From an uncultured Bacteroidales bacterium (GTDB lineage: Bacteria; Bacteroidota; Bacteroidia; Bacteroidales; UBA4417): 64,000 nt of DNA. The position numbers and the translations under genes are program-made. The first letter of the stretch is position 1; every line of letters starts with the position of its first letter. The notes beneath the pieces are model-generated. The model was not told the DNA's origin. It saw only the letters and a program-made list of their open reading frames with translations, and did no database searches. The stretch is from the NCBI GenBank assembly GCA_903879715.1, contig CAIRMR010000209.1, forward strand, positions 1 to 64,000, in the 5' to 3' direction. This document shows, piece after piece, positions 3,529-54,352 of the stretch.

Positions 3529-3834
3529 GTCGGAAGTCGGAAGTCGGGAGTCGGAAGTGTTTCAACCGACATAAATCTTCGTTTCGTTTAAGTTTTTTAT
3601 TCATTTATTTTGTGATAGGCTTTTATGGAAGTGATTTGTCGGAAGTCGGGAGTCGGAAGTCGGAAGGGTTTCAACCGATATAAATCTTCGTTCCGTTTAA
3701 GTTTTTTATTCATTGATCTTGTGATAGGCTTTTATGGAAGTGATTTGTCGGAAGTCAGAAGTCGGGAGTCGGAAGGGTTTCAACCGATATAAATCTTCGT
3801 TCCGTTTAAGTTTTTTATTCATTGATCTTGTGAT
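3529..3834. repeat. 109-bp tandem repeat, about 2.8 copies
   Basis: Units begin at 3529, 3638 and 3747, an exact 109-bp period. Each unit has a GTCGGAAGTCGGGAGTCGG block, then TTTCAACCGAYATAAATCTTCG and an AT-rich tail ending TTGTGATAGGC. The units differ by a few substitutions and by rearrangement of the heptamer block. The array sits between ilvC and the second ilvN, inside the operon. Confidence 0.9.
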
Positions 3835-3884
3835 TTTTATTCTTTTGAATTTATTCCATTTTATTAGCTTTTCAAAGATTCCAG

Positions 3885-4055
3885 TTTCGGTCTTCCGTCT
3901 TCGGACTCCCAGCTTCCGACTTCCGACTTCCGTCTTCCAGCTTCTTACTTCCGTCTTCTGTCTTCCGACTTCCGTCTTCCGACTTCCGACTTCCGACTTC
4001 CAGCTTCTTACTTCCGTCTTCCGATTTCCGTCTTCCGACTTCCAACCCCTTTTCC
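3885..4055. repeat. Heptamer array CTTCCGN / complement of GTCGGAAG
   Basis: About 170 bp of loosely tandem 7-bp units (CTTCCGA, CTTCCGT, CTTCCAG). This is the reverse complement of the heptamers that begin each 109-bp unit at 3529-3834, so the gap can fold into a long imperfect hairpin. The same words recur at 31904-32043, 44018-44040, 53972-54030 and 54128-54320. Open frames through it are repeat translations and were not called as genes. Confidence 0.85.
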
Positions 4056-31903: not shown

Positions 31904-32043
31904 TAGTCGGAAGTTGGAAGACGGGAGAAGGAAGTAACACTAATATCTCTTTTCTCCAAAATAAGCGGATACCATTTGCCATTTTCTTCCGTCTTCCGTC
32001 TTCCGTCTTCTGACTTCTGACTTCCGTCTTCTGTCTTTTCGAA
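31904..32043. repeat. Heptamer words AGTCGGAAG / CTTCCGTCTT between lspA and atpD
   Basis: AGTCGGAAGTTGGAAGACGGGAG (31904-31929) and CTTCCGTCTTCCGTCTTCTGACTTC (31986-32022) face each other as an inverted pair. It is the same family as the arrays at 3529-4055 and 53972-54320. Confidence 0.75.
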
Positions 32044-36639: not shown

Positions 36640-37234
36640 TAAATTATAATATAAAAATTGATGGAGTATGTGGGATTGAAGGAGTTAAAATTCGATTTTG
36701 CCGGTGTTTTAGTCGGAGTGCGACTTTGAGTAGTTTACAAATTCAGCAACGATTTCTTTTGAAATTACATTACCTGAATTTTGAAATACACGATTCCAAT
36801 TTTGAAATTACATGACTTCAATTTTGAAAATGCATGAAATATTTTAAGACTTCTACCTCTAATTCATGACTTAACAAGTTATGTCAGCCATAAAAAAAAC
36901 CTATAATTTTTTACTTGAAGGGGCAACAACCTGAAATCCCCATCTGCTTTTTATGTAAATGGGACTTTGAATTGAAAAGATTATTTGGCTTTACTATAAA
37001 TCTAGCACAATAAACTGTAAGATTCTACTTGTAATTGAAGTTCTAAAGAAAAAAAGAAATAAAAATGTTTCACATCGGCAAACACCAGATTATTCAAAAT
37101 TCAGAACATTTGATTGCTGAGTAAACAAAAAAAATCAGATTCTTTCTAATTGTTGTAATACCTTTTTCAAACTATCATTTTCAACAATTCAGGAAGTTAA
37201 TAACAAACATGCAATCACAGATAGAACAATACAA
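36640..37234. other. Intergenic region, no gene recognised
   Basis: About 600 bp of AT-rich sequence. It has repeated TTTTGAAAWWCAYGA words at 36779-36840 (AATTTTGAAATACACGA, AATTTTGAAATTACATGA, AATTTTGAAAATGCATGA) and a short hairpin AGTCG...CGACT at 36711-36727. No convincing ORF, tRNA or riboswitch was seen. Confidence 0.4.
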
Positions 37235-37383: not shown

Positions 37384-38271
37384 TTAGTTTTTTAGTAATT
37401 CATTAATCAGTTTAACCCGTTCGTCAAAATATTTATCCGAAGCGCCCATCTGAAATCCCCAATACGTTGATACGATTTCGCCTTTTTTGTTTAAAACTAT
37501 ATCAACTGGCATGGACGTAATCCCTAATTCTTTTCTCAATTTTAAATCCTTATCAATATAGGTTTTAATCGTGACTTTATATTTTGCGAGGAATGCGGGT
37601 AATTCATTCATTGAATGGTCAACATCGCAATACACGCCTATAATCTCAACATCATTACGGTTGCTAAAGGCAGATTTTAATTTTTCGAGTGTCGGAAACT
37701 TCGCACGACAGGGCCGACAATTCATAAAATAGAAATCCAGTAACACCACTTTGCCATTGAAACGGCTTTGCTCAATGGTATCGCCGCTTTGGGTTCGTAG
37801 CAGGGAATAGTTCACTTGTTTTAGTTTCGGAACAAAAATATCAGCCTGATCTTTGTATTCACTTTTTGGAATAAATACCAGGTTTATATAAAGAAGTATT
37901 GGTATGCTCAGGGTTAAGGCAGCATAAAAACCCTTGTTCCGTACTAACACATTAAATCCAAGATAAAAGCCAACGATTTTAAGCAATGTATTCACCGGAA
38001 AAATTTCAGGGAAATTGAGGTGGTTTACATAACCACCCATTGAGTCCAGGAGAATCGCTTCAATGAGAAATAAAAATGCTATAAGATTTGATAGTGTTTT
38101 TGTTCTGCTCTTTATCAGGCACAATACTAATCCCGATAAAAAATAAATCCCGAATGATATGAGATTCCCGACTCGTAAATCCGATTTTCCAAAAACGATG
38201 TAATTATGAAGAGCATAAATGCCAAAACCTGATAAAATAACAAGTAAAATGGGAATTATTTTTTTTTTCAC
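37384..38271 (-). CDS. Membrane-anchored TlpA/thioredoxin-like protein
   Basis: A 295-residue protein. The first ~135 residues form four or five hydrophobic segments, and residues 150-295 are a thioredoxin-like fold with the active site CRPC (YFMNCRPCRAKFP, about 182-194), preceded by GKVVLLDFYF. The cis-Pro motif SMPVDIVLN follows. It would act on the periplasmic side as a disulfide reductase or oxidase. It starts with GTG, 48 bp after the fulvocin C-related gene, and is probably co-transcribed with it. The neighbour is Cys-rich, so a role in forming or editing its disulfides is a reasonable inference. Confidence 0.82.
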   Translation of the reverse strand: MKKKIIPILLVILSGFGIYALHNYIVFGKSDLRVGNLISFGIYFLSGLVLCLIKSRTKTLSNLIAFLFLIEAILLDSMGGYVNHLNFPEIFPVNTLLKIVGFYLGFNVLVRNKGFYAALTLSIPILLYINLVFIPKSEYKDQADIFVPKLKQVNYSLLRTQSGDTIEQSRFNGKVVLLDFYFMNCRPCRAKFPTLEKLKSAFSNRNDVEIIGVYCDVDHSMNELPAFLAKYKVTIKTYIDKDLKLRKELGITSMPVDIVLNKKGEIVSTYWGFQMGASDKYFDERVKLINELLKN

Positions 38272-38319
38272 CAGTAAAATATTAAGTGTTTATAGTCTTA
38301 GAAGAAAACAATATGTTCA

Positions 38320-38940
38320 TTACACTGCAAGCGAGCATCTCCCATCACAAACATACCACATCATAAATCCACAATCACGAACCTCATGACAAATTGCATT
38401 TGTATCGCAAGAATTACAGCTAAATGCGCTTGTGCTGCAACAATTACAGTTCTTCACGCCAGGATCAACATACGAAGGAGATATAGAAGAAGACTTGGCA
38501 ATATTATTTTTTGAGTTGAAACTGTTTATACTAAAGGCAATTTTTATAATTTCTTCTTTAGTAAAATAATTTAATCCTTCGATACACCAGTTTTTGGCGA
38601 AGGAAGTAAAAGATTTAGAGTCTTTATTAGAATCTTCAAATGTACTGATATTTATAAATGTATTTAATTTTTCTATATGATTGCGCTGTTCATCAGTAAG
38701 TGTATCGGATTTTATAAGTGCTGTAAACCTTTGTTTCCATAAGGTTGTTTTTTCTGCAGGAGATAAAAGATTATAAGCTAGTCGCTGATCGCTTTGGGAG
38801 GATAACTGTATAACTTCGTTTATTAGTTTTAAATTCACAGTATTATTGTTTGATGTTAAATCAACATTTGTTTCTTTTTCACATTGTGTGAAGGCGAAAA
38901 GCATTAAAATGCATGTCAAAAGTGCGAATTTCATTTTCAT
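38320..38940 (-). CDS. Fulvocin C-related Cys-rich lipoprotein (bacteriocin-like)
   Basis: A 206-residue protein. Residues 1-20 are a lipoprotein-type signal (ALLTCILMLFAFTQC, lipid Cys at 20), residues 21-155 are a helical, low-Cys region, and the last ~43 residues hold nine Cys. That tail (NCNCCSTSAFSCNSC...RDCGFMMWYVCDGRC) follows the pattern of fulvocin C, the disulfide-rich Myxococcus bacteriocin (NCSCSTASDYC...GCGTGWVYCAC), and of the Bacteroidetes fulvocin C-related family. Start set at ATG 38940. A longer frame begins inside the promoter's -7 box. It is preceded by three LytTR-like repeats and a consensus promoter, and followed by a membrane thioredoxin-like gene. Killing activity is not established. 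Confidence 0.75.
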   Translation of the reverse strand: MKMKFALLTCILMLFAFTQCEKETNVDLTSNNNTVNLKLINEVIQLSSQSDQRLAYNLLSPAEKTTLWKQRFTALIKSDTLTDEQRNHIEKLNTFINISTFEDSNKDSKSFTSFAKNWCIEGLNYFTKEEIIKIAFSINSFNSKNNIAKSSSISPSYVDPGVKNCNCCSTSAFSCNSCDTNAICHEVRDCGFMMWYVCDGRCSLAV

Positions 38941-38972
38941 AACAGAAAGTTTTTCAGGTGAATGTTTTTCAG

Positions 38973-39002
38973 CAAATATATAGTGCATTATTTAATTGTC
39001 AA
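38973..39002 (-). promoter_or_regulatory. Promoter of the fulvocin C-related operon
   Basis: TTG at 39002-39000, exactly 19 bp, TATATTTG at 38980-38973: a full match to the Bacteroidetes consensus and to the ilv and trp promoters here. Transcription would begin near 38966 and the ATG is at 38940. Confidence 0.8.
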
Positions 39003-39021
39003 CAAATTCTAATGCAAAAAA

Positions 39022-39072
39022 GCTAACTCCGGCGTTTTAGAAGCTAACTCCATTGTTCTGGCAGTTAACTCC
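39022..39072 (-). promoter_or_regulatory. Three 21-bp-spaced direct repeats, candidate LytTR binding sites
   Basis: On the minus strand GGAGTTAAC (39072-39064), GGAGTTAGC (39051-39043) and GGAGTTAGC (39030-39022) recur with an exact 21-bp period; a weaker fourth unit lies near 39085-39093. LytTR regulators bind direct 9-bp boxes with a GTT core separated by about 12 bp, that is a 21-bp period. The nearest unit is about 20 bp upstream of the -33 element, a place suited to activation. Confidence 0.75.
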
Positions 39073-39118
39073 GCTGTTACTGTGGTTATCCTTATTTTAA
39101 ATCTCCTTAATTTGTTCA

Positions 39119-39505
39119 TTATTCCCTTTGTTGATTTGCATATATTGGGGGGGGGGGGGGTAACATACTGTTTATTAGCTTATTAAATTTAACTTTCCTG
39201 TAACAAGCTACATTTACAGATAAATTGTTTGTTAATTCAATGATGCATGTCTTGTGGTTGTATTTTTTAACATGTCGAAGATTTATTAATCTTGCGGTGT
39301 GGCATCGATAGAAATGCATCTCTGATAAATAGGATTCTAGTTCAGTTAAAGTATGATAAACCCTGAATATAAGTCCCTCTACAAGTTGAGCGTTTACCTT
39401 GCTGTTTTCAATAAAAAAATAAATGATGTCAGATGATTCAATAAGTTCAAGGCCGAATTTGGTTTTGAGGGGAATACGGAACTGCTTCGCTATTATAATA
39501 TCCAT
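39119..39505 (-). CDS. LytTR-domain-only DNA-binding regulator
   Basis: A 128-residue protein that is essentially one LytTR domain (about residues 12-112). It has ESSDIIYFFIENSKV at the first strands, the signature FYRCHTARLINLRHVKKY near 63-80, and CYRKVKFNKLI at the end. There is no receiver or membrane part. Its last residues before the stop include a Pro run made by 14 consecutive C on the coding strand (39147-39160). It lies directly upstream of a promoter with three LytTR-type repeats, so it is the likely regulator of the fulvocin C-related operon. The input signal is unknown. Confidence 0.85.
   Translation of the reverse strand: MDIIIAKQFRIPLKTKFGLELIESSDIIYFFIENSKVNAQLVEGLIFRVYHTLTELESYLSEMHFYRCHTARLINLRHVKKYNHKTCIIELTNNLSVNVACYRKVKFNKLINSMLPPPPPIYANQQRE
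39147..39160. repeat. Homopolymer of 14 G within the LytTR gene
   Basis: A run of 14 G (C on the coding strand) codes for the Pro run at the LytTR C-terminus. The tract has a length that makes slipped-strand change likely. It may equally carry a sequencing or assembly length error. Confidence 0.95.
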
Positions 39506-39674
39506 TATAAAAGTTATTTATATTTAAAACAAATTATCTATAATAATTTTGGCAACTAAGATACATATTTATTGATAACCAAATCCTTTTTCCAATTGCA
39601 TTAATCTTTCCTAAAAGAAAAATCCCATTTACCTTTCCAAGCAAACGGGACTTAAGAATTCAAATAATCAATTT

Positions 39675-52786: not shown

Positions 52787-53968
52787 ATGAAATCTAATTC
52801 TCAATCAAAACCAGGATACTACGGGAAATTTGGCGGCGCTTATATCCCCGAATTACTATTTAATAACGTGGACGAACTGCAGAAAAACTATGAAAGAATA
52901 ATCCGGACCACCGAATTCCAGAAACAGTTTAAAACACTGCTTAAGGATTATGTCGGGCGACCAACGCCACTCTATTTTTCAGATGCTCTATCTGCTAAGT
53001 ACAAAGCCAAGATCTTTCTGAAACGCGAAGACCTTAACCATACGGGCGCACACAAGATCAACAATGCCTTGGGACAGGCTTTGCTTGCCAAAATGATGGG
53101 CAAGCAGAAAATTGTAGCCGAAACCGGTGCCGGTCAGCACGGTGTAGCAGTTGCAACGGCCTGCACTTTACTCGGTTTATCCTGCGTGGTTTTTATGGGC
53201 GAAACTGATATCGCAAGGCAGGCACCCAATGTAGCACGAATGAAAATGCTGGGAGCCACGGTTATTCCTTCGCTTAGCGGAACCAAAACGCTGAAAGATG
53301 CCACCAATGATGCCATCCGGTATTGGATAAATCATGCAGATGATACACATTACATTATTGGTTCGGTTGTAGGCCCGCACCCGTATCCGGATATTGTAGC
53401 CAAATTTCAATCTGTTATCAGCAAGGAAATCAAAATCCAGTTGAAGAAACAAACCGGCGATGCCGAACCGGATTATGTTATCGCTTGCGTAGGTGGAGGA
53501 AGTAATGCCGCCGGTGCATTCTATCATTTCCTGGGTTCAAAAAAGACTAAACTCATCGGTGCCGAAGCAGCTGGAATGGGCATTCATTCCCACGAAACAG
53601 CGGCTACTTTAATGGTTGGTTCTGTGGGGATAATTCACGGTGCGAAAACCTACCTGATGCAAAACAAGGATGGCCAGATAACTGAACCATACAGCATTTC
53701 CGCCGGTTTGGATTATCCTGGAATCGGCCCTTTACATGCTTATCTTCATGAAACAAAGCAAGCTACTTATTATGCCGTTACCGACCGCGAAGCACTGGAT
53801 GCGGCTAAAGAACTGATTCACCTGGATGGAATTATTCCCGCGCTCGAATCGGCTCACGCCTTTGCATTATTGCCAAAAATGAAGTTCAAGCCAAGCGATG
53901 TAGTTGTGATCAATCTTTCGGGAAGAGGCGATAAAGATATGGAGACGTATCTGAAGTTCATTTTGTAG
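52787..53968 (+). CDS. trpB: Tryptophan synthase beta chain
   Basis: A 393-residue PLP enzyme. The Schiff-base lysine is Lys90 in NHTGAHKINNALGQ, and the phosphate loop is VGGGSNAAGAF. KFGGAYIPELL opens the protein and EHLDYPGIGP-like SAGLDYPGIGP carries the conserved communication region; NLSGRGDKD is at the end. It condenses indole with serine. Its start lies in the second copy of a duplicated initiation region. Confidence 0.96.
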   Translation: MKSNSQSKPGYYGKFGGAYIPELLFNNVDELQKNYERIIRTTEFQKQFKTLLKDYVGRPTPLYFSDALSAKYKAKIFLKREDLNHTGAHKINNALGQALLAKMMGKQKIVAETGAGQHGVAVATACTLLGLSCVVFMGETDIARQAPNVARMKMLGATVIPSLSGTKTLKDATNDAIRYWINHADDTHYIIGSVVGPHPYPDIVAKFQSVISKEIKIQLKKQTGDAEPDYVIACVGGGSNAAGAFYHFLGSKKTKLIGAEAAGMGIHSHETAATLMVGSVGIIHGAKTYLMQNKDGQITEPYSISAGLDYPGIGPLHAYLHETKQATYYAVTDREALDAAKELIHLDGIIPALESAHAFALLPKMKFKPSDVVVINLSGRGDKDMETYLKFIL

Positions 53969-54352
53969 ATGGAAGACCGAGGACCGAAGTCGGAAGACGG
54001 AAGACGGAAGTCAGAAGACGGAAGAAAGAATTCGGAGTAGATAGAGTAATTAAGCATTTGCACACAATTAAATCATTCTAAAATTTAAAAGATAAGAAAC
54101 AACTGGTTAAGATGTCAGCAGGATCAGCTTCCGACTTCGGACTCCCATCTTCCAGCCTTTTTAACCATCCCCGGATAAAGATGAATTAAGAATTACGTGG
54201 GATTGGCTTCCGACTTCGGACTCCTGTCTTCCAGCCTTTTTAACCATCCCCGGATAAAGATGAATTAAGAATTACGTGGGATTGGCTTCCGACTTCGGAC
54301 TCCTGTCTTCCAGCCTTTTTAACCATACCTTCAACCATAAAACACACAAACC
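53969..54352. repeat. trpB-trpA gap: GACGGAAG heptamers and a 79-bp tandem repeat
   Basis: Heptamer words (GGAAGACGGAAG, GTCAGAAG) fill 53972-54030. From 54128 a 79-bp unit (CTTCCGACTTCGGACTCC, CTTCCAGCCTTTTTAACCAT, CGGATAAAGATGAATTAAG) repeats with starts at 54128, 54207 and 54286. The last unit is truncated at AACCATACC, near 54330. No gene or promoter was recognised. Confidence 0.9.

Follow-up and report, generated by a model that had tools for sequence, protein, structure and literature searches.

Gene content of the locus

The window, i.e., the whole 64-kb stretch of DNA that was analyzed, carries on its reverse strand a gene for a standalone LytTR regulator with a long G/C homopolymer at its 3' end. 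It is followed by an operator-like repeat array, a predicted promoter and a gene for a bacteriocin-like protein. The features of the locus are, in the direction of transcription:

39620..39653, reverse strand: terminator-like hairpin after the amylase gene; the hairpin region is also found in two near species (G003 and G009)
39119..39505, reverse strand: lytTR, standalone LytTR DNA-binding protein of 128 aa, with the domain at residues ~10-113 and a tail at 114-128 (Pfam, AlphaFold2, PDB, alignment)
39147..39160, forward strand: G14 homopolymer at the 3' end of lytTR, read directly from the sequence; the only run longer than 10 in the genome
39020..39093, no strand assigned: operator-like array of 9-bp direct repeats GYTAACTCC with 12-bp spacers (tandem repeat, lag-21 self-match, unique exact pair)
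38973..39002, reverse strand: predicted promoter of the fulvocin-related gene, TTGACA-16-TATATT, also TTG-N19-TATATTTG (consensus match only)
38320..38934, reverse strand: fulvocin-C-related (bacteriocin-like) protein of 204 aa, ATG at 38934 (NCBIfam NF033852)
37384..38271, reverse strand: probable membrane protein whose C-terminal part carries a thioredoxin/redoxin domain (residues 158-267; Pfam AhpC-TSA and Thioredoxin_8)

The lytTR product matched the Pfam family PF04397 (LytTR) over residues 20-111 with 49.6 bits (gathering cut-off 22.6), and this score and the fold together place it in the LytTR family. An AlphaFold2 model, built with 30 relatives and covering the C14 version of the protein alone, had a mean pLDDT of 92; its last helix stops at residue 113, beyond which the tail is looser. 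The best PDB matches of the model were a LytTR domain from Bacillus cereus and AgrA. The AgrA-like LytTR fold is complete, and a receiver domain is absent from the product. In sequence, its nearest relatives (~30-38% identity) are for the most part the output domains of full-length response regulators. The single locus recovered by a scan of the contigs of the genome (L038) was discarded as an ordinary full-length response regulator. The terminator-like hairpin separates lytTR from the upstream amylase gene.

The fulvocin-related protein matched NF033852 with 91.1 bits (curated cut-off 35) over model positions 1-150 of 150 and is thus a member of this family, with a Cys-rich C-terminus. A longer version of its ORF, starting at 38988, would overlap the predicted promoter. 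The gene of the membrane thioredoxin is the next one in the same direction, and a redoxin-domain gene also lies directly behind another fulvocin-related gene (L134).

Both lytTR and the fulvocin gene are absent from the two near species G003, the nearest species compared, and G009, in which the amylase is 96% and 91% identical to that of the source genome, respectively. In these species the thioredoxin gene is kept and comes right next to the amylase gene, ~114 bp away, and the segment corresponding to 38271-39613 of the window, which holds the two genes, is missing. Within the 114-bp gap, one part shows weak similarity to window sequence lying upstream of lytTR. These arrangements are consistent with a two-gene block that may have been gained or lost between an old promoter and the thioredoxin gene. 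Compared with L115 and L116, segment 38271-39613 is a clean presence/absence polymorphism of the two-gene block. A LytTR-like fragment in G003 (L127) was dismissed as a short remnant lacking a long G run, and the tract was seen in no second genome among those compared. No plasmid or viral relatives of the LytTR or fulvocin-related proteins were found.

Repeat array and predicted promoter

Three clear copies of GYTAACTCC are present at 39022-39030, 39043-39051 and 39064-39072, with a weak and perhaps fourth one at 39085-39093; on the sense strand of the downstream gene the repeat reads GGAGTTARC. The self-match of the array at lag 21 exceeded that of all 1000 shuffles. Its exact paired motif (zero mismatches) occurs nowhere else in the genome, and the array was therefore rejected as a common genomic repeat. 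It lies 19 bp upstream of the -35 element of the predicted promoter, which had 11 of 12 matches in a sigma-70 scan. This promoter also fits TTG-N19-TAnnTTTG, the promoter pattern of Bacteroidota.

The binding sites of LytTR regulators are 9-bp direct repeats separated by 12-bp spacers and located upstream of promoters, bacteriocin promoters among them (PMC6193735). The candidate array has the layout expected for the repeats of LytTR regulatory systems (9-bp direct repeats, spacers of 11-13 bp, position upstream of a promoter), and array and promoter together show the typical arrangement of a LytTR operator, which makes the array a predicted operator. No such repeats were found upstream of lytTR itself. 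With this array, the predicted promoter and the fulvocin-related gene beside it, lytTR is a well-motivated candidate for the regulator of the bacteriocin-like gene. The original prediction had already called it so: its protein and the fulvocin-C-related gene are real, an operator-like array and a predicted promoter lie between them, and the regulatory link stays a predicted one. The pairing of lytTR with a fulvocin gene was seen in none of the other fulvocin loci examined in the order, the phylum and two further samples of the order, and the 21-bp array was not seen upstream of other fulvocin genes among the loci examined. A literature search for fulvocin together with LytTR returned no paper.

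Other repeats are present in the window. At 36757-36837, upstream of ileS, is a degenerate 22-bp tandem array (TTTTGAAAATACATGACTTCAA, 3.7 copies), to which G003, G010 and G015 have similar sequence, and heptad-based intergenic arrays (AGTCGGA / TCTTCCG) recur at 3529-4043, 31985-32037 and 53967-54036.

The G14 tract and its reading frames

The 14 consecutive G at 39147-39160 of the forward strand correspond to C14 on the coding strand of the ORF at 39119-39505. Tract lengths of 11-18 were each translated to compare the frames. As assembled (C14), the protein ends in INSML-PPPPP-IYANQQRE, with 8 residues beyond the prolines and 128 aa in total. With C13 the end becomes PPPP-QYMQINKGNNEQIKEI (16 residues beyond the proline run, 135 aa), and with C15 it becomes PPPPP-NICKSTKGIMNKLRRFKIRITTVTAELTARTMELASKTPELAFLH (45 residues, 165 aa). 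Counted with their prolines, the tails have 13 (C14), 20 (C13) and 50 (C15) residues. The C15 frame crosses the 21-bp repeat array downstream of lytTR. Run, position, C14 terminus and both alternative tails are thus as originally predicted from the letters.

The three tails bear no likeness to one another or to the ends of related proteins. The length of the 45-residue tail is unremarkable, as 5% of shuffles of the downstream sequence give a frame open for at least as long. Since 21 is a multiple of three, the array encodes a tail of 7-residue repeats within the ~45 residues added in this frame. We regard it as very improbable that the operator doubles as coding sequence of the regulator, with a slipping tract toggling between a plain and a long-tailed form.

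Residue 113 is the last of the folded domain, and the proline run starts at 116. Several relatives stop at the counterpart of residue 114, at which the tract begins in lytTR, indicating that the tract sits at the natural end of lytTR; others stop 2-6 residues further on, with no tail sequence in common. As the fold ends before the tract and several relatives end at its start, the DNA-binding domain is intact at every tract length. On/off phase variation by truncation was accordingly rejected, and the earlier label of a "switch" was too strong in this respect.

How unusual the run is

Run lengths were counted in the 64-kb window, and genome-wide counts were obtained by pattern search. The window has 17 G/C runs of length 5 and a single one of 6; lengths of 7-13 are absent, and the only longer run has 14. 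By geometric extrapolation, ~7e-7 such runs are expected in the window and ~7e-5 in the 6.07-Mb genome. For runs of at least 10 the expectation per genome is 0.13 against three seen, so that the extrapolation understates long runs somewhat. The G14 run is nevertheless far beyond chance and a clear outlier: the remaining two G10+ runs of the genome are both exactly 10 long and both intergenic.

Among the other G10+ runs listed for 16 genomes of the genus, lengths were 10-12 except for one of 27, which ends a contig and looks artefactual. In the order, 29 of 267 genomes carry a run of 14 or more; of the runs listed, about half were at contig ends, and the internal ones were mostly intergenic. 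In three genus members, a G10-G12 run follows the shared sequence CACGCGAAAGGATTCGCGCGG(T/C)A(G/A)C (L070:1501-1511, L073:1079-1090 and L074:1501-1510), resembling a dispersed repeat element with poly-G at its end. A mobile repeat of this type was rejected as the source of G14, as CACGCGAAAGGATTCGCGCGG is absent beside the tract. Runs of C15-C17 occur ~50-160 bp ahead of an ORF in four further genomes of the order (L141:1501-1517, L142:1501-1517, L155:1501-1515 and L157:1501-1517), a placement at which tract length could affect a promoter.

The assembled tract length might itself be wrong, with a true run that is shorter or different and a tail that is partly artefact. The assembly is a draft of 223 contigs, long G runs at contig ends of sister genomes look artefactual, and the part of the literature consulted documents an artefact of two-color Illumina chemistry. 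Here, however, the run lies 39 kb into its contig; the coding sequence that precedes it is intact, as are the promoter and gene that follow, and it is therefore not a contig-end artefact. We consider an error in tract length improbable.

Does the tract slip, and does tail length matter?

In Helicobacter canadensis, eight genes have G10-G14 tracts at their 3' ends, with ranges of tract length observed in reads (PMC2823697), and slippage of a G14 run is therefore to be expected. The tract is long enough for this, in line with the earlier point that long poly-G tracts slip. We thus propose that the G14 run probably slips in the population. Slippage would swap a short unstructured tail of 13, 20 or 50 residues, and the product of every frame would contain the whole DNA-binding domain. 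This standalone regulator probably binds the three to four 21-bp-spaced repeats just 3' of its own gene, and such binding would activate the fulvocin-C-related gene, perhaps together with the membrane thioredoxin gene that follows. The tract would persist because it lies outside the part of the protein that matters. On balance we lean, with about even confidence, towards a slippery but nearly neutral tract that has a small effect or none on expression of the bacteriocin-like gene.

This near-neutrality is argued from the position of the tract. It agrees with the mostly intergenic location of the other long internal G runs of the order, as if they were tolerated where little is done. Against it, so long a run is very unlikely to arise without a cause, it lies at the candidate regulator of a competition-type gene, the kind of place where contingency tracts are found, and under neutrality one might expect the tract to become shorter or broken up over time.

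In a refined form of the original prediction, functional C-terminal phase variation, the tails would alter stability, dimerization or affinity of the regulator and thereby tune the bacteriocin-like gene in a subpopulation. The length of the tract and its 3' position fit that known class, it is the only run longer than 10 in the genome, it lies in a regulator beside a likely operator and a bacteriocin-like target, and the C15 tail is long, giving a protein of 165 aa. However, the DNA-binding domain is complete before the tract, relatives work without such a tail, and the open +1 frame is within chance. We judge functional tuning to be rather unlikely. The earlier proposal that tract length tunes the regulator is weakened by the end of the fold before the tract and by related LytTR proteins that have no comparable tail.

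The tract could also act on DNA or RNA, its length or structure altering downstream transcription or the stability of the lytTR transcript. Downstream of it, the most distal weak repeat is ~54 bp and the predicted promoter ~145 bp away, several genomes of the order have long C runs at ~50-160 bp upstream of ORFs, and promoter-acting tract mechanisms are described for nadA and sabA in the portion of the literature consulted. Yet the tract is outside the interval between operator and promoter, so that changes in its length leave their spacing unaltered, and no further binding site was found upstream of the tract, nor a terminator-like hairpin there. Such an action has a slim chance of being correct.

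If the preferred reading of a nearly neutral tract is right, what remains is a compact LytTR/operator/fulvocin unit that allows regulator, binding site and target to be tested jointly. If instead the tract slips and the tails differ in activity, the locus would represent C-terminal phase variation of a transcription factor in a member of the Bacteroidota, and bacteriocin-like production would be under stochastic control.

Comparison with known systems

The LytTR protein resembles the regulators of the HdrRM and BrsRM systems of Streptococcus mutans (PMC6193735), which are likewise soluble, standalone and without a receiver domain; there, too, 9-bp direct repeats spaced by 12 bp precede a promoter, and the target gene is bacteriocin-like. 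In contrast to these systems, the repeats here are at the downstream gene, number three or four instead of two, and lie 19 bp from the -35 element (4-11 in the published set). A paired membrane inhibitor gene is also missing: the neighbors (fulvocin-related protein, membrane thioredoxin and amylase) gave no match to DUF3021 or DUF2154. As no membrane inhibitor is paired with lytTR, the locus falls outside the definition of a LytTR regulatory system.

The LytTR domain of AgrA (PDB 3bs1, 4g4k and 4xqj) has the same fold, with a TM-score of 0.80-0.84 by target length at ~22% identity, but the LytTR protein here lacks the receiver domain and the upstream sensor kinase that AgrA has. The fulvocin-related protein is like other NF033852 proteins in its match to the whole model and, as in L134, in the redoxin-domain gene behind it; its locus differs from the other fulvocin-related loci examined by the adjoining LytTR gene and the upstream 21-bp array.

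Tracts at the 3' end of genes that change the C-terminus alone are an established class, known from H. canadensis and from four genes of Neisseria gonorrhoeae with C-terminal phase variation (PMC5320596). Unlike in these two species, the tract here has C on the coding strand, not G, and belongs to a DNA-binding regulator in Bacteroidota; length variation was seen in reads there, and here a single consensus assembly gives the length. The likenesses are a poly-G/C tract of at least 10 (here 14) near the 3' end of the coding sequence, three frames that lead to different tails of a few to some tens of residues (here 8, 16 and 45), and a main domain that is made in all frames. By its sequence the locus is therefore a candidate member of the C-terminal phase-variable genes, and it is a believable, if unproven, example of this already described kind of switch.
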